Shown here in pieces: positions 1,638-27,621 of a stretch of 27,647 nt of DNA. This DNA is from a virus. The stretch's first letter is position 1, and the number at the start of each line of letters is the position of its first letter. A program made the translations under genes and the position numbers. The notes under the pieces are model-generated. The model made no database searches. It was not told the origin of the DNA and saw nothing but the letters and a program-made list of their open reading frames with translations. The stretch covers positions 1 through 27,647 of IMG/VR virus record IMGVR_UViG_3300009285_000866. One strand, written 5' to 3'.

Positions 1638-3899
1638 ATGAATTCCGTCTTCAACTGCCTTCCGAAACAAAAGCTGTTTCTTGAGGAGTGCGATAAGAAG
1701 AGATTCATTTTGTTCAACGGGGGGGTGCAGTCGGGGAAATCCCGCAGCGGAGCGTTGCAGGATTGGAGGGCGGTGATCGAAAACAAACCGCCTCACCTCG
1801 GTTGGGTGGTCGCCGGTTCTTATGCCCAGACGGAAACGGTGATGGGGGATTTCGAGGATTTGCTTCAGGGCGGCATCAAAAGAAAAACGACGATGGAGGG
1901 GGCGCGAGTCATCTTCGATATCTGGAATGGGCATCGGGTCGAATTCAGGACGGCTAGAAATCCGGATGCGCTTCGCGGCCCGCGTGTGGGCTGGGTTCAC
2001 GTCGATGAAGGACGTGAAGTCTCGAAAGAGTGCATGGACGTTCTTTATGGCCGGGTCTTGCGATACAAGGGAAAAATCTGGGTCACGAGCACGCCGAGCG
2101 GAAAACACTGGTGGGGCTACAAGGATTTCTATTTAAGAACCTGCCGCAATACGCCGTGGTTTGATGAAGACTATGGCTACATCCATTGCACAAGCCTTGA
2201 AAACTGGCATCTTGATCCGAAGGAGATCGAAAAACTCCGGGCCAAGTATACCGGAGCCTTCGCCGCTCAGGAGCTTGAGGCTCAATTCGTCGGATATGAG
2301 GGGCTTGTCTACAAGGACTTCGACCCCGGCGCTCATATCTGCGCGCCCGTTTCCCACACCGACCCGAACATCAAGCGCGTCCTCGCCGGTATCGACTTCG
2401 GACTTAACGACCCGTTCGTTCGCTTGATCGTCGCTTTGATCGACGGACGATGGAAAGTAGTGGAAGAATACTACTGGGACCAAGGCGGCAAGACGGTCGA
2501 TCACCATGCGCCCTATCTTCTGGAATCGGCTTGGAATAGCAAGATCGACGTTTGCTATTCCGACTACCACGACCCCGAAGGACAGGCCACGCTGCGGCGG
2601 TATGGGATTGCCAATGTTTCTGCCCCTCACCATGAAATCTATATCGGCATCCATGAGGTGACTCGGCTTCTAGGAACGCGGCTTAATGACGGCTTTCCGG
2701 CGTTGCAGGTGTGTTCCAATTGCCCCAAGACGATAGAGGAGTTTGGGCTTTATCGTTATCCGGAGGAGAGGGAGACGAAGAACGTGGGAGACAAGCCGCT
2801 GGATAAGTACAATCACTGTTTTGTCGCGGGCACGGAAATCGAGACGGATAAAGGGCCGCGTGACATCGAGGAAATACTTGAAGACGATCTGGTTTTAACG
2901 AGGGACGGATTCCATCCCGTCCGCAAAGCATGGATTACACGCCGGGATGCGCCTACGGTTGTTGTCACGCTTGATGATGGAAGGACACTGAGGGGTACGC
3001 CGGAGCACCGAGTGTGGGTGGATGAGACGGGATGGATAACGCTTGACACGCTGCGATATGGAGATAAGATTGTTACATGCAAAGAACGGTTTATCGCGGC
3101 CGAATCTTCAGGTTGTATCGCGGAGAGCGATATTTCAGCCGTGGAACGAAACGGCTGCATCGCGTCATCTGGAGTGACGCAAACGGCCCGATTCCTTCGG
3201 GATATCATGTACACCACTCAAACGGCAATCCCCTTGACAATCGGCTTGAAAACCTTGAGTTGTTGCAATCGAAGGCCCACGCGGGTTGCCACCGCCCAAC
3301 GGGCGAGCGGTTGCGAAAACTACGGGAGCATCTGGACGGAATTCGGGATAAGGCGGCTAGGTGGCATCGGTCGAAAGAGGGAAGACGCTGGCATGGCGAA
3401 AACGCCATCAAGGTTGCGGCAAAGAGAAAGAAAAGGCGTGCGGTCTGTTCCCGGTGTGGGGGGTCTTATTGGAGCAAAGCCCCAAAGCGGTTCTGCTCGA
3501 ACGCTTGCAAGTCTGCGAGTCGCCGCGCCGATGGGCGGGATAGAGTTTCCAGACAATGCCAGATATGCGGGATTGGATATTATTCCTGCCGATTCAAGCC
3601 CACGGAAACTTGCGGTCGCTCATGTGGTGCGCGTTTCCGATGGCAAGCCCGCCGATGTTTACGCGCTTCACGTTAAGACGTGTCACGAATTCTTTGCCAA
3701 TGGAATTCTTGCGGCCAACAGCCTCGACAGCTTAAGATACGCTCTTTTTGGCGAGAATCATTCCGTCTATCGTGGACCGAAGAAGGAAGAGAAGAAGGAG
3801 CCGGGCCCCGGAACCTATGGCTGGTGGCGGAAGCGCCGGCATATTCAACCTGTGGGATTGTTTCCCCGAAGGGGGAATGGATTCTCGATTCTTGGATAA
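1638..3899 (+). CDS. terL: large terminase (TerL) precursor containing an intein
   Basis: This is the motor ATPase and nuclease that packages DNA into the prohead. The 753-residue precursor has Walker A GGVQSGKS (28-35), Walker B HVDEG (D123, E124), the coupling motif TSTP (150-153) and the RNase H-like nuclease start GIDFG (D253). An intein fills residues 394-694. Joining residues 1-393 to 695-753 gives 452 residues, normal for TerL, and rebuilds the last nuclease motif, DKYNH/SLDSLRYAL. The intein therefore splits the nuclease site, and the unspliced protein should not cut DNA. ATG 1638 follows the 49-residue gene by six bases. The N-terminal 250 residues look intact. No small subunit is recognisable nearby. 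The family call is firm; packaging type (cos, pac or other) cannot be told. Confidence 0.95.
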   Translation: MNSVFNCLPKQKLFLEECDKKRFILFNGGVQSGKSRSGALQDWRAVIENKPPHLGWVVAGSYAQTETVMGDFEDLLQGGIKRKTTMEGARVIFDIWNGHRVEFRTARNPDALRGPRVGWVHVDEGREVSKECMDVLYGRVLRYKGKIWVTSTPSGKHWWGYKDFYLRTCRNTPWFDEDYGYIHCTSLENWHLDPKEIEKLRAKYTGAFAAQELEAQFVGYEGLVYKDFDPGAHICAPVSHTDPNIKRVLAGIDFGLNDPFVRLIVALIDGRWKVVEEYYWDQGGKTVDHHAPYLLESAWNSKIDVCYSDYHDPEGQATLRRYGIANVSAPHHEIYIGIHEVTRLLGTRLNDGFPALQVCSNCPKTIEEFGLYRYPEERETKNVGDKPLDKYNHCFVAGTEIETDKGPRDIEEILEDDLVLTRDGFHPVRKAWITRRDAPTVVVTLDDGRTLRGTPEHRVWVDETGWITLDTLRYGDKIVTCKERFIAAESSGCIAESDISAVERNGCIASSGVTQTARFLRDIMYTTQTAIPLTIGLKTLSCCNRRPTRVATAQRASGCENYGSIWTEFGIRRLGGIGRKREDAGMAKTPSRLRQRERKGVRSVPGVGGLIGAKPQSGSARTLASLRVAAPMGGIEFPDNARYAGLDIIPADSSPRKLAVAHVVRVSDGKPADVYALHVKTCHEFFANGILAANSLDSLRYALFGENHSVYRGPKKEEKKEPGPGTYGWWRKRRHIQPVGLFPRRGNGFSILG
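2817..3719 (+). mobile_element. intein in terL with an out-of-frame endonuclease
   Basis: A 301-residue Hint-type intein (precursor residues 394-694) in the terL frame. Block A starts at Cys1 (CFVAGTEIE). Block B has TxxH in GTPEHRVW, followed by a typical GWITLDTLRYGDKI. Block F is VYALHVKTCHEFFANG, and block G ends ILAAN before Ser+1. The penultimate residue is Ala, not the usual His. Between blocks B and F the terL frame encodes about 180 residues with no recognisable domain. The same DNA read in the -1 frame encodes an intact HNH endonuclease (3077-3676). Ser+1 is the first residue of the C-extein SLDSLRYAL. Intein boundaries are precise because the TerL motif is rebuilt exactly. Confidence 0.92.
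3077..3676 (+). CDS. HNH homing endonuclease nested in the terL intein (other frame)
   Basis: A 199-residue HNH endonuclease encoded wholly inside the intein but in the -1 frame. It would cut intein-free terL alleles and so spread the intein. The HNH core is GYHVHHSNGN (H46, H47), then DNRLENLELL and H68. The C-terminal part has two zinc knuckles, C124/C127 with C140/C144 and C161/C164 with C179/C183. It has its own ATG at 3077, where the endonuclease-like sequence begins, and its own TAA at 3674-3676. A GGAG at 3060-3063 could serve as a ribosome site, though its 13-base spacing is long. The codons for C179-C183 overlap intein block F, so conserved residues of both proteins share DNA. The family call is strong; independent translation is inferred. 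Confidence 0.87.
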   Translation: MQRTVYRGRIFRLYRGERYFSRGTKRLHRVIWSDANGPIPSGYHVHHSNGNPLDNRLENLELLQSKAHAGCHRPTGERLRKLREHLDGIRDKAARWHRSKEGRRWHGENAIKVAAKRKKRRAVCSRCGGSYWSKAPKRFCSNACKSASRRADGRDRVSRQCQICGIGYYSCRFKPTETCGRSCGARFRWQARRCLRASR

Positions 3900-3905
3900 G
3901 TTGAC

Positions 3906-4283
3906 ATGGTCGATTTCGCCTACACCAAAAAGATCGAACCGGAAGACTACCGGACTTGGCGGTTGGAGGTTGAAACATGCCGCCCGGTTCGTGGCGAGAC
4001 GTATGAACCGTGTTTCTTCTTCGGAAGAATAGTGGGATCGAAGGATACGCCGGAAGGAATGCTTCTTCTGTCTCAACCCCTATGGATCACCTTTCGGCAA
4101 ATGAGATTTGTCAAGACGCCAATGGATAAGGCTTCGGCCTTGGATTCCATGCTTGTCCAGGGGAAGCGATTGATAAAAATAAGCATTGACCGATGGCATA
4201 AAGGTTTGTTACGTATCGTCCCCAGCCCCAAGAGACAGAGGACGCTGGAAGAGATAGAAAAGAATCTTCGATTTACCGTTTGA
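3906..4283 (+). CDS. hypothetical protein between terL and portal
   Basis: A 125-residue basic protein with no motif that I recognise. It starts at ATG 3906, seven bases after the terL stop, and ends at 4283. The sequence is evenly charged, has no membrane segment or signal peptide and ends in a helical, Glu/Lys-rich tail. Small genes between terminase and portal are common in phages and vary widely. It has no clear ribosome site and may depend on coupling to terL translation. Confidence 0.6.
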   Translation: MVDFAYTKKIEPEDYRTWRLEVETCRPVRGETYEPCFFFGRIVGSKDTPEGMLLLSQPLWITFRQMRFVKTPMDKASALDSMLVQGKRLIKISIDRWHKGLLRIVPSPKRQRTLEEIEKNLRFTV

Positions 4284-22168: not shown

Positions 22169-22216
22169 ATGCCCGTTAGTGACCTGCCAAGAGGATCGTC
22201 TAGGGGGATGGTATGA
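22169..22216 (+). pseudogene. orphan 15-codon gene start left of the endonuclease
   Basis: ATG 22169 with a good ribosome site, AAGGG (22156-22160), opens a frame MPVSDLPRGSSRGMV that stops at 22214-22216, overlapping the endonuclease ATG at 22213. Just past that gene, DNA at 22628-22645 reads IPVPDL before an in-frame stop, and CCCGT..TGACCT matches on both sides at 11 of 14 bases. It looks like the original start of the following tail gene, cut off by the endonuclease insertion. Confidence 0.4.
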
Positions 22217-22626
22217 AACCGGATGAGGGGACAAAACAGCGGTGTTATGTTTGCAAGCGCACGAAGAACACTAGTTGTTTTAGTCTAAAAAACTCTGGCA
22301 AGTGGAAGGGCCACTTCAGGTATGACTGCAAGCGATGCAATGCAATCAGTAGCAAGAGATATGCCAAAGAAACTGGGTATCACAGAAAACACAAATATGG
22401 CATTGGGCTACACGAATACGAGAATATGATAAGAACCTGCGGGGGAAGATGTGAGCTTTGTGGGGAATTTCCAAAACCAAATAAAATGTTACATTTGGAT
22501 CACAATCACAAGACAAGAAAGGTTCGGGGTCTTTTGTGTCCGTCCTGTAATCTTGGGCTGGGATTATTCAAGGATAATCCAGCAACACTTCAACTGGCAA
22601 TTAATTACCTTCTAAGGAGAAACTGA
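22213..22626 (+). CDS. endonuclease VII-like HNH protein
   Basis: A 137-residue protein with the endonuclease VII signature: zinc pairs CYVC and CELC with a later CPSC, and the catalytic MLHLDHNHKTRKVRGLLC. A first Cys-rich half (CYVCKRTKN, YDCKRCN) precedes it. In T4 this family resolves branched DNA, but free-standing copies in phages often act as mobile homing-type genes. This copy splits two parts of a tail gene (orphan start 22169-22216; next gene at 22673), which supports the mobile reading. ATG 22213 has AGGGGGA at a 4-base spacing. The family call is firm; mobility is inferred. Confidence 0.8.
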   Translation: MKPDEGTKQRCYVCKRTKNTSCFSLKNSGKWKGHFRYDCKRCNAISSKRYAKETGYHRKHKYGIGLHEYENMIRTCGGRCELCGEFPKPNKMLHLDHNHKTRKVRGLLCPSCNLGLGLFKDNPATLQLAINYLLRRN

Positions 22627-25063: not shown

Positions 25064-25441
25064 ATGCCCATCATTTCAGTCGATACCACGGATGGAGTCA
25101 TTCAACCGGTAAACGCAAGGACGGATACTTCTTTGCGTATCCGGGTGCTTGACCCGGTAGGCGCGGCAAAGAACATTACAAGCTATGCTTTCCGCGCAAC
25201 CTTCCGGCTGAATAACGGTGGGAGGGTAATCAAGAATTATCATACGAGCACAGGGGGGATAGCCTTAACTTCATCTACCAATGGCAGATTGACTATTACG
25301 GTTGATGCCAGCGACCTGCCCCCGGCTCCGTTTGGATTTTTGGAATTGGTCGAATATTCAGGTGGGAGCTTGGCCGGTGATCCAACCGACCGCTTTCGCT
25401 TCCGCGTCCCGATTTCTGGTGGCAGCGGGGAAAGCTATTGA
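25064..25441 (+). CDS. small beta-sandwich tail or fibre protein
   Basis: A 125-residue protein with an immunoglobulin-like strand order: DTSLRIRVLDPVG, SYAFRATFRLNNGG, GRLTITVDASDLP, FLELVEYSGG and FRFRVPISGG. The pattern resembles N-terminal attachment domains of phage baseplate upper proteins, but it stands alone here. The excellent AAGGAGG (25050-25056, 7-base spacing) picks ATG 25064 over the much longer in-frame frame from 24803, which is a shadow of the lipoprotein gene. Its stop overlaps the radical SAM ATG (TGATG). Confidence 0.55.
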   Translation: MPIISVDTTDGVIQPVNARTDTSLRIRVLDPVGAAKNITSYAFRATFRLNNGGRVIKNYHTSTGGIALTSSTNGRLTITVDASDLPPAPFGFLELVEYSGGSLAGDPTDRFRFRVPISGGSGESY

Positions 25442-27621
25442 TGTCGATTTCAGACGTGGCCGAAAGACTGGTGTTGGATGACTCCAAGATTCAATACCAC
25501 ATGGATCGAGTGAAGCAGTGGGATCGGGGGGAACGGATTGCTCCCATTACGATTGACATGGCCTTAACTCAAGCGTGTACCGCCGGATGCGGTTTTTGCA
25601 TCCGTGGAGATCAAAGAATTCTTCTTTCAGGTGGTTTGTCAGTACCGATAAAAGAAATTAAAACTGGCGACTGTGTTGTCTCTCTGGGAAAAGACGGGTC
25701 TCTTTCCACATCAATCGTCACCGCGTCTTGGATGAGTCATCCCAATAAAAAAACATTGACAATTTTCGTGCAAGGCGATATGCTTGTTTGCACATATGAT
25801 CACCCAATCCTCACAAGACAAGGTTGGAAGCTGGCGGGTCAACTCACCCCCGGCGAGAAAATCGCATGTATCCCCGGAAGGTCGCGCCGCCATGTCCGCA
25901 AAGATGATTGGCGACAAAAACCCGATGAGGAATCCAGACGTTGTCAGGCGTCAAGGCGAAACCATGAGGCTTCGGCACGCCAAGAAGATTTCAGAATGGT
26001 CGAAACGCATGTGGAAGGCTGGACGAATGAACCCGACGGGCATGGGGATGGAAAGCAGGAAAGCCGCCGCCAAGAGAATGAGAGAAAACAATCCGATGCG
26101 ACGCAAGGAGGTTGCAGAGAAATCACGGAGTTCCTTTTCGCCGGAAAGAAGGAAGTCCTTGTCGGAAAGAATGAAATTGTCTTGGAAAACCGGGGCAATA
26201 AAGCCAAGGACTTATGGACAGGGAATAAACAGTCAGGAGAAGATATTGAATGCCACGTTGGCCCCGATGGGATTTACTTACATGGGGGACGGAAAGTTTT
26301 GGGTCAATCCGACCAAGAGCGGTATTCGGAGAAATCCAGATTTCATGTACACGGCGCAGAAAGATTTGCGCCTGGTTGTTCTCTTGAATTCAACGTATCA
26401 TCACCGGGACAAAGAGAAATTCGATCAGGAAATGGAAGATTACATTGTGGCAAAATGGAATGTGTTGGTTCTTTGGTTAAAGAACCGGATTACGTTGCTT
26501 CATCGAGAAGAAGTAGAGAAGATCGTCTGCGGGGAGTTGTCTATTGTAAAGTCGAATCTATTGAGGCTTCCTCAAGTTGCCCAGTATACGATATTGAGTG
26601 CTGGCCGCATCACAATTTCATCGCCTCTGGCGTAGTTGTTCATAATTGCTATGCCGCCCTTCAAGCTAACAAGCCAAGGCGTATCACAACGGAGATCATG
26701 CGGCAGTTCCTGGATGACTGCTTTGAGATCGGCGTCAAGGCGGTATCGTTCGTGTCGGACGGCGAATCAACCCTGTCCCCCGCCTATGCCCCCTCCATAG
26801 AACACGGCCATTTCATAGGGTTGGATATGGCCTCTGGGACGTGGGGGGGTCCACTAACCAGGCCGATCATCGACCGGGTATTGCCCTGCCTGACATACCT
26901 CCGATTCAATATCAGTGGTGGAACCCCCGAAAGAACAGCCGAAATCATGGGGATCAGCATCCCGCAGCATCTAAAGGTGCTGGAAACGGTCCGCTATTGC
27001 GTCGATAGGAAGGCGGAAAGGGGTCTAGGAGTGACGATAGGCATCCAGATGGTACTTCGACCCCAAGATGCAGACCAGATCATCCCATTTGCGAAATTAG
27101 GCGTTTCTCTTGGCGTAACATATGCCATAATTAAGCACTGTTCAGACGATGAATCTGGTAGCCTTGGGGTGGATTACGACAAATATCCCCTATTTTACGA
27201 CAAGCTGCAAGAGGCGGAATCATTAAGCACGGATACAACCAAAGTGGTAATCAAGTGGAACAAGATCAAACAGGGGGGGACAAATCGAAGACCCTACGAC
27301 CGATGCTTTGGACCTCCATTCATCATGCAGATTTCAGGCTCTGGTTTGGTGGCTCCGTGTGGAATGTTGTTTAACGAGAAGTACAGCCGATTCCATATCG
27401 GGAACATCTGCAAAACCCGATTCAAGGATATCTGGCAATCGGAGAAATACTGGGAAGTGATGAATTTGATTGCCGATCCGAACCGGTTCGATCCTCGAAA
27501 GGCTTGCGGGTCATTGTGTTTGCAGGATCGCACCAACGTGGCTCTGTGGAATCACAAGGTTAACGGCGTTTCGCTTGTTGAACCCTCCGAAGCCGATCCC
27601 GCCCATGTTAATTTCGTTTAG
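25441..27621 (+). CDS. radical SAM/SPASM enzyme precursor containing an intein
   Basis: A 726-residue precursor of an iron-sulphur enzyme that uses S-adenosylmethionine radicals. The CxxxCxxC motif is C46, C50 and the third Cys, which is split off by an intein (residues 53-402); Cys403 becomes the third ligand after splicing. The spliced form is 376 residues. Downstream, SFVSDGESTL and YLRFNISGG fit the partial TIM barrel. The C-terminal SPASM-type region has C622, C640, C689 and C693 (RCFGP, VAPCGM, ACGSLC) for extra clusters. ATG 25441 overlaps the previous stop. Substrate is unknown; peptide or glycan modification is plausible. It could still be an anaerobic-activating type enzyme. Confidence 0.85.
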   Translation: MSISDVAERLVLDDSKIQYHMDRVKQWDRGERIAPITIDMALTQACTAGCGFCIRGDQRILLSGGLSVPIKEIKTGDCVVSLGKDGSLSTSIVTASWMSHPNKKTLTIFVQGDMLVCTYDHPILTRQGWKLAGQLTPGEKIACIPGRSRRHVRKDDWRQKPDEESRRCQASRRNHEASARQEDFRMVETHVEGWTNEPDGHGDGKQESRRQENERKQSDATQGGCREITEFLFAGKKEVLVGKNEIVLENRGNKAKDLWTGNKQSGEDIECHVGPDGIYLHGGRKVLGQSDQERYSEKSRFHVHGAERFAPGCSLEFNVSSPGQREIRSGNGRLHCGKMECVGSLVKEPDYVASSRRSREDRLRGVVYCKVESIEASSSCPVYDIECWPHHNFIASGVVVHNCYAALQANKPRRITTEIMRQFLDDCFEIGVKAVSFVSDGESTLSPAYAPSIEHGHFIGLDMASGTWGGPLTRPIIDRVLPCLTYLRFNISGGTPERTAEIMGISIPQHLKVLETVRYCVDRKAERGLGVTIGIQMVLRPQDADQIIPFAKLGVSLGVTYAIIKHCSDDESGSLGVDYDKYPLFYDKLQEAESLSTDTTKVVIKWNKIKQGGTNRRPYDRCFGPPFIMQISGSGLVAPCGMLFNEKYSRFHIGNICKTRFKDIWQSEKYWEVMNLIADPNRFDPRKACGSLCLQDRTNVALWNHKVNGVSLVEPSEADPAHVNFV
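25597..26646 (+). mobile_element. intein in the radical SAM gene with an out-of-frame endonuclease
   Basis: A 350-residue Hint-type intein (precursor residues 53-402). Block A starts at Cys1 (CIRGDQRILLSGG). Block B has TYDHPILTRQGW with T and H of TxxH, then LTPGEKIACIPG. Block F is YDIECWPHHNFIASG, and block G ends VVVHN before Cys+1. The splicing frame between blocks B and F encodes about 195 hydrophilic residues with no recognisable domain. The same DNA read in the +1 frame encodes a NUMOD3/Vsr-like endonuclease. Boundaries are exact because removal rebuilds the CTAGCGF/CYAAL iron-sulphur motif. Confidence 0.92.
25796..26635 (+). CDS. NUMOD3 + Vsr/EDxHD-like homing endonuclease nested in the intein (other frame)
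   Basis: A nuclease frame inside the second intein, +1 relative to it. NUMOD3-type repeats come first (SPEGRAAMSAKMIGDKNPM, MNPTGMGMESRKAA, NNPMRRKEVAEK). A Vsr-like or EDxHD-type core follows: SQEKIL (Glu), GFTYMGDGKFW, RRNPDF (Asp), a hydrophobic strand, TYHHRD (His and Asp) and WNVLVLW. The start is uncertain: ATG 25796 lies in block B DNA, while ATG 25892 has GGAAGG at a 10-base spacing but cuts into the first repeat. The last 40 codons look like a shadow of intein block F. It differs in family and frame from the terL intein enzyme. Independent expression is inferred. Confidence 0.75.
   Translation: MITQSSQDKVGSWRVNSPPARKSHVSPEGRAAMSAKMIGDKNPMRNPDVVRRQGETMRLRHAKKISEWSKRMWKAGRMNPTGMGMESRKAAAKRMRENNPMRRKEVAEKSRSSFSPERRKSLSERMKLSWKTGAIKPRTYGQGINSQEKILNATLAPMGFTYMGDGKFWVNPTKSGIRRNPDFMYTAQKDLRLVVLLNSTYHHRDKEKFDQEMEDYIVAKWNVLVLWLKNRITLLHREEVEKIVCGELSIVKSNLLRLPQVAQYTILSAGRITISSPLA

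Follow-up and report, generated by a model that had tools for sequence, protein, structure and literature searches.

The large terminase gene of a virus in the IMG/VR collection (record IMGVR_UViG_3300009285_000866) contains an intein that is overlapped by an endonuclease reading frame. The stretch analysed here, referred to as the window, comprises positions 1 to 27,647 of that record, and its terL, intein, endonuclease and radical SAM features described below lie on the plus strand. The gene, terL, encodes the terminase large subunit as an open reading frame (ORF) of 753 amino acids (1638–3899) that matches Terminase_6N (1.1e-11) and phrog_2, terminase large subunit (1.4e-39), and this frame is not interrupted anywhere between 1638 and 3899. 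An intein of 301 amino acids (2817–3719) lies within it in the same frame, hereafter the host frame. Across the middle of the intein runs an ORF of 199 amino acids (3077–3676), in the -1 frame relative to terL, with its own ATG and TAA, which codes for an HNH endonuclease (HEN).

The intein begins with Cys1 at 2817, ends with Asn301 at 3717–3719, is followed by a nucleophilic Ser+1, and interrupts TerL at ...DKYNH/SLDSLRYA (the slash marks the insertion point), a motif common to relatives. Three models match it in the host frame: Hint_2 (E-value 1.1e-7, over its cut-off), Intein_splicing (3e-8; score of 34 on the protein and 36 bits in a DNA search, with a cut-off of 35.8) and TIGR01445 (1.8e-4; score of 22.4, below the cut-off of 24.5). 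Splicing blocks A, B, F and G are all present, as the preliminary description of this DNA, made from the letters alone, had stated with the right coordinates. In an AlphaFold model with 40 host-frame inteins as alignment input, residues 1–90 (2817–3086, blocks A and B; pLDDT 93–98 per 10-residue block) and residues 261–301 (3597–3719, blocks F and G) form a Hint domain with high confidence. Residues 91–260 (3087–3596), the linker whose DNA also codes for the endonuclease, are predicted to be disordered, with a pLDDT of 40–52 per 10-residue block and mostly below 50. The closest structure in the PDB is the gp41-1 intein (6qaz, target TM 0.88), and NrdJ-1 ranks third. No RNA family in Rfam matches across 2500–4200, and therefore no known intron family lies there.

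The endonuclease ORF matches HNH_3 (7.5e-17) and, over residues 12–190 and thus nearly its full length, phrog_15471 (1.6e-30). AlphaFold folds it confidently (mean pLDDT 96.6), and it contains both the HNH catalytic motif and the DNA-binding parts of an HNH homing endonuclease. The HNH_3 core occupies residues 26–68 (3152–3280) and is followed by two zinc motifs of the CxxC-CxxxC form, C124/C127/C140/C144 (3446–3508) and C161/C164/C179/C183 (3557–3625). All eight cysteines as well as H28, H46, H47, N55, N59 and H68 are invariant in 51 HENs with the same nested layout, the window copy included. The top fold match of the model is I-HmuI (1u3e), which is weak both by structure (Foldseek E 0.28) and by sequence profile (E 0.98). 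The third forward frame has a single 60-codon ORF (3361–3543), in agreement with the preliminary description. When the codons of the terL frame were shuffled synonymously, the HEN frame stayed open in only 1 of 20,000 trials, with a mean of 8.2 stops; together with the domain matches in both frames, this indicates that both reading frames are real.

The two coding sequences overlap mainly where the intein is predicted to be disordered, with only about 10 nt of folded Hint sequence covered at the front and about 80 nt at the back. It had been proposed that the codons of the last zinc cysteine pair coincide with block F. These codons (3611–3613 and 3623–3625) indeed overlap folded Hint sequence, namely the C-terminal beta-strand formed by model residues 265–286 (3609–3674), but they end shortly before block F proper (VYALHV..., starting at about 3657); it is the tail of the HEN, with its stop codon, that overlaps block F itself.

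A search of viral contigs with the window HEN as single sequence gave no confirmed relative. A tblastn search of 50,697 phage records gave 18 records with a match, of which 12 were examined, and four of them carry an HEN inside a terL intein, out of frame and always in the -1 phase: Tetrasphaera phage TJE1, Acinetobacter phage Highwayman, Rhodobacteraceae phage LS06-2018-MD07 and the faecal phage contig MT838676. A profile built from 12 HENs then retrieved 68 loci from bacterial and archaeal genome contigs and, out of 564 confirmed stretches in viral contigs, the best 80. Altogether 172 HEN matches were scored for flanking Hint halves, and 127 full-length ones (score of at least 140) were kept while 45 weaker ones were dropped.

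These 127 HENs, whose class proportions are not a census given that the viral loci are the best 80 of 564, fall into several layouts. Sixty-nine are nested in the -1 phase with a fully open host frame; one (locus L094) is nested in the +1 phase; 22 are fractured, with stops or differing frames between the Hint halves of a terL intein; 34 are free-standing, with no Hint around the HEN; and one is partial. An in-frame endonuclease in relatives would have spoken against the out-of-frame layout, but none of the 92 full-length HENs for which both Hint halves were detected is in frame. The -1 nested loci include the four phage records named above, 50 IMG/VR loci and 14 genome-contig loci, the last including Thermoplasmatota and Nitrososphaerota among archaea and Bacteroidota, Nitrospirota, Chloroflexota, Pseudomonadota and Bacillota among bacteria. 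Among the 56 nested inteins listed, nearly all are inserted at one shared TerL motif, NH/xxDAxRY, the last conserved acidic motif of the TerL nuclease domain. One terL gene (L072:647–3865) holds two inteins with nested endonucleases, the second inserted at DWGFS/CDPF.

Two of the 22 fractured loci may be nested cases: in L099, a Methanimicrococcus genome, TAG codons occur in the frames of both the terL intein (1963–4242) and the endonuclease (3492–4106), and reading TAG as an amino acid, in the manner of a pyrrolysine user, makes both frames continuous; L106 has no host-frame stops under the HEN and is set apart only by a frame difference between the N and C halves, so that an indel may account for it. 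In another fractured locus, L067, the second intein half begins on the HEN stop. In Lactobacillus phage CL2 (L014: 455–1954, 1967–2590 and 2487–2774), a split intein seems to divide terL, an HNH gene lies in between, and the C-terminal half carries no annotation.

The two reading frames, their predicted folds, the selection pattern, the recurrence, the start-site signals and the tie to terL, all computed here, make it very probable that the window carries a terL-targeting HNH/zinc-finger homing endonuclease, independently translated and overprinted in the -1 frame on the linker of a mini-intein in the nuclease motif of TerL. We infer the following course from sequences and models. Translation of terL would yield the N-terminal part of TerL, Hint-N, a flexible linker some 170 residues long, Hint-C and the C-terminal part of TerL, from which protein splicing would restore TerL; the mini-intein looks competent for splicing. 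The endonuclease would be translated independently, beginning at an ATG of its own within the intein, and would cut intein-less terL alleles near the insertion site, whereupon repair would copy the whole intein into the cut alleles. In the overlap, selection would hold the sequence of the endonuclease, while the host frame need only avoid stops; the linker peptide would therefore be filler.

Start-site signals are consistent with independent translation. A Shine-Dalgarno (SD) match of at least 4 nt precedes the first ATG in 38 of 65 nested HENs, compared with 22.0% of 2170 control internal ATGs, and a match of at least 5 nt in 23 of 65, compared with 6.7% of the controls. In the remaining 27 of 65 loci the 4-nt match is absent, and 4 of 69 nested loci have no ATG near the HEN start, so that other modes of initiation are likely to operate in part. 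In the window, the ATG is preceded at 13 nt by a weak SD-like GGAG (3060–3063). A promoter-like sequence, TTGACA-16-TAAGAT (3043–3070), also lies just before it and could give a near-leaderless transcript; as a consensus match found once against 0.4 expected in shuffled sequences, it could equally be chance and is a lead only.

An alternative route to the endonuclease would be programmed -1 frameshifting from terL, producing a fusion of the N-terminal part of TerL, the N-terminal part of the intein and the endonuclease. All 69 loci of the main class are in the -1 phase, which is the direction of such frameshifting, and in 9 of the 69 a phased slippery heptamer follows the HEN-frame stop and precedes the HEN. 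However, this stop lies a median of 12 nt before the first ATG (within 30 nt in 51 of 66 loci) and would confine the shift to a very short stretch; in the window, a TAA in the HEN frame (3065–3067) stands only 9 nt before the ATG. No phased heptamer is found there in 60 of the 69 loci, the window among them, the ATG and SD signals are enriched at exactly this point, and L094, L132 and L155 use the other phase. Frameshifting is therefore judged improbable, and separate initiation of the endonuclease is preferred. At the other end, the HEN stop lies 31–91 nt upstream of the intein end in 69 of 69 loci.

Selection acts differently on the two frames. Host-frame stops number zero in 56 nested HENs and average 6.5 (range 1–12) in 27 free-standing rows (26 of full length and one 69-codon fragment), although the zero is partly a matter of definition, an open host frame being the criterion for "nested"; what gives the test its weight is the contrast with the free-standing HENs and the finding that 69 of the 92 Hint-flanked HENs fall in the nested class. 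Third-frame stops are similar in both groups (19.2 nested, 21.9 free-standing). Nested HENs also avoid NTA codons, using Ile ATA at 0.13 vs 0.36 and Leu TTA at 0.07 vs 0.25 in free-standing HENs, and these are the codons that would create stops in the host frame. In five close pairs (among L038/L040/L043 and L011 or L016/L017), dN/dS is 0.07–0.20 in the HEN frame and 0.97–1.71 in the host frame; these values come from nested relatives, the window copy having no close relative, and overlapping frames bias the NG86 method. For L062/L066, a near-identical pair, the values are 0.36 and 0.44, respectively, from very few changes. Across the close nested pairs, purifying selection is seen in the HEN frame but not in the host-frame linker.

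Comparison with free-standing HENs gives a similar picture. At 40–50% identity, differences at HEN codon positions 1, 2 and 3 are 0.45/0.42/0.64 in nested and 0.45/0.41/0.65 in free HENs. HEN identity exceeds shadow-frame identity to an equal degree in both groups, and nesting brings no better conservation of the shadow peptide (0.22 in nested HENs, 0.21 in free ones). From dN/dS, stop counts and codon differences together, we conclude that the HEN is kept as a protein while the linker is merely kept open. These data also bear on the idea that the ORF is a dead relic whose frame has remained open through lack of time to decay. The window copy has no near relative, and a second nested ORF in the window, described below, looks eroded at its Vsr-like residues compared with its homologue in L095, as a relic might. 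Yet HEN-frame dN/dS is 0.07–0.27 in all computable pairs but L062/L066, the HNH and zinc residues do not vary, and an unconstrained frame would have gained stops at the 29–43% identity that separates the window HEN from the nested HENs (best match, 43%). Decay is thus a very unlikely explanation, and a maintained endonuclease accounts better for these patterns.

Out-of-frame HNH genes without an intein are already known. In the ShiLan element, an HNH protein of about 195 aa with zinc fingers is encoded out of frame within a phage methylase gene that has no detectable splicing domain; it has a GTG start with no ribosome-binding site reported, and its disjunct distribution was read as homing (PMC11855218). 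A genome note mentions an out-of-frame HNH in a methylase (PMC12613952). The window element shares with ShiLan the out-of-frame HNH, the zinc fingers and a host frame open throughout, but it differs in its full Hint blocks on either side of the HEN, in its host gene (terL rather than a methylase) and in the HEN start, which in this family is mostly ATG, often with an SD. The view in the preliminary description that no standard description of this layout was known therefore needs a caveat.

The existence of such insertions without splicing domains (PMC11855218) raises the question of whether the present element is also inert and retained in the protein as a loop. The window intein ends in Ala-Asn, which would fit. 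The usual C-terminal pair of inteins is His-Asn, and here the penultimate His is replaced by Ala. On the other hand, the element has blocks A, B, F and G together with the C-terminal Asn and Ser+1, the Hint domain is modelled with high confidence with gp41-1 as the top PDB match, and a retained insert of 300 aa at the TerL nuclease motif should be harmful. We accordingly give an inert loop very little credence and favour an active mini-intein. An artefact, in which two assembly or sequencing indels make an in-frame endonuclease appear out of frame, is conceivable for a virus record from a contig collection and had been raised as compensating indels near the ends of the ORF, but its probability is negligible and it is rejected at the family level by recurrence, since the same -1 phase is found in 69 of 127 full-length HENs, among them four named records of phages, 50 loci from IMG/VR and 14 from genome contigs, and random errors cannot leave the host frame stop-free under the HEN in all.

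Several points nevertheless weigh against a spliced intein with an overprinted, independently translated endonuclease in the window. Its evidence comes from sequences and models throughout. The window sits on a long branch of the HEN tree with no near relative found, its own SD is weak and its intein lacks the usual penultimate residue. Across the family, the loci without SD or ATG, the nine with a phased heptamer, and the limits given above for the stop counts and the dN/dS values count on the same side.

Two other known arrangements join endonucleases to inteins. In bifunctional inteins, the endonuclease domain is in frame with the intein. An intein with a homing endonuclease occurs, for example, in terL of mycobacteriophages (PMC5050341), and the window element resembles it in the position of the homing endonuclease between blocks B and F, but differs in having the HEN in the -1 frame. 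In "fractured genes", reportedly described by Dassa et al. in 2009, a split intein has a free-standing endonuclease gene between its halves; the split inteins gp41-1 and NrdJ-1 reportedly come from that work. The 22 fractured HEN relatives have such a layout, with the endonuclease gene between intein halves. In the window, by contrast, terL is one open frame (1638–3899) rather than a host gene broken into two ORFs, and the endonuclease overlaps the continuous gene and intein rather than interrupting them. The window HEN shares the HNH core with I-HmuI and other phage HNH homing endonucleases; I-HmuI, however, is intron-borne, and the window HEN has two zinc motifs and different flanking domains. 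The phrog_15471 HNH endonucleases of phages such as PAE1, SN1 and EauM-23 belong to the same family over nearly the full length, but there the HEN is a separate gene beside an intein-less terL, with no overlap. Out-of-frame HNH genes in phage genes without splicing domains and split inteins with an endonuclease between the halves are thus already known. The literature searched contains no complete intein with an out-of-frame endonuclease, though a preprint by Gosselin et al., which PMC11855218 cites for overlapping frames in actinobacteriophages, may describe one; the parts consulted of PMC5050341, PMC10448857 and PMC3229294 hold no such description.

The HEN family is closely associated with terL. 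Apart from L041 and L113, 32 of the 34 free-standing HENs adjoin an intein-less terL, most of them less than 100 nt away; with the nested site also in terL, the HEN is tied to this gene in every form. Across the 69 nested loci, HEN and Hint divergence correlate (r of 0.50 for pairs below 90% HEN identity; maximum of 1000 permutations, 0.11), and the two thus mostly travel together. The proposal that a separately translated nuclease can evolve apart from splicing is therefore only half true. The nested locus L075 (2560–3990) and L169 (2353–3150), an HEN-less TerL mini-intein from the record of an archaeal virus, have near-identical DNA outside a replaced middle, a pattern as expected of HEN-plus and HEN-minus alleles. 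This pair and the 32 free-standing HENs beside terL bear only indirectly on the presumed homing by the window HEN. A search with the TerL N-extein gave one weak relative and no close empty site for the window phage.

On a quick HEN tree with 60 of 118 inner branches open, accounting for the nested label takes at least 18 changes (6 are forced by starred branches), compared with a shuffled mean of 42. The nested state is clustered on the HEN tree, does not form one group and has changed several times. The fractured L063 is placed among nested rows, and the +1 nested L094 near fractured ones. As the family is also found free-standing and between split terL intein halves, the nested form is one of a small number of states that interconvert; the changes may have run from free through fractured to nested or the reverse. 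We lean, by a modest degree, towards a more general view in which overprinting is a third way, beside in-frame fusion and fracture, of joining the two activities: a terL-targeting HNH would have been captured by terL mini-inteins in antiphase and then spread through viruses of bacteria and archaea, interconverting with free-standing and fractured forms.

If so, the steps that join splicing elements and endonucleases into one mobile unit could be read and tested within one gene. One endonuclease family at one gene in three forms (free-standing, overprinted and between split halves) makes the formation of a composite mobile element directly testable. Intein biology gains a gene-within-gene layout that is no curiosity but recurs in many unrelated phages and prophages. 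It also provides a clean natural case of overlapping frames, with amino-acid selection on one and, on the other, only the need to avoid stops. In TJE1, Highwayman and LS06-2018-MD07, terL is the only gene annotated at the locus (MT838676 has no annotation), and such inteins pass for mini-inteins whose linkers are junk, although an unannotated endonuclease lies underneath.

A second intein in the window has a comparable layout. A radical SAM/SPASM ORF (25438–27621; SPASM 3.4e-9, Intein_splicing 3.2e-12, and rSAM_Rv_intein 1.1e-17, which is below that model's cut-off) contains an intein of 350 aa (25597–26646) that is inserted before the third Cys of the CxxxCxxC motif. An endonuclease-like ORF of 283 aa (25784–26635), unrelated to the HEN, lies over it in the +1 frame, with NUMOD3-like repeats and a Vsr-like part. 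This ORF has no Pfam or PHROG match, no tblastn match in phages, and just one chance-level match in a PDB sequence search. One homologue lies in frame within an intein in L095, and a second is placed between split halves in L096. Acidic residues that L095 has seem to be missing from the window copy, which may therefore be inactive.

Two further loci have an HNH ORF in the +1 frame of an intein: L132 (1537–3213, with the HNH ORF at 2267–2989), whose host gene is head-like by eye, and L155 (1277–4831, with the HNH ORF at 3219–3767), whose host gene is DNA-polymerase-like by eye. Such unrelated antiphase cases, in the radical SAM, polymerase-like and head-like genes, would show repeated origin. 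Elsewhere in the window, a free-standing endonuclease VII-like gene is located at 22213–22626 (Endonuclease_7, 1.4e-21).

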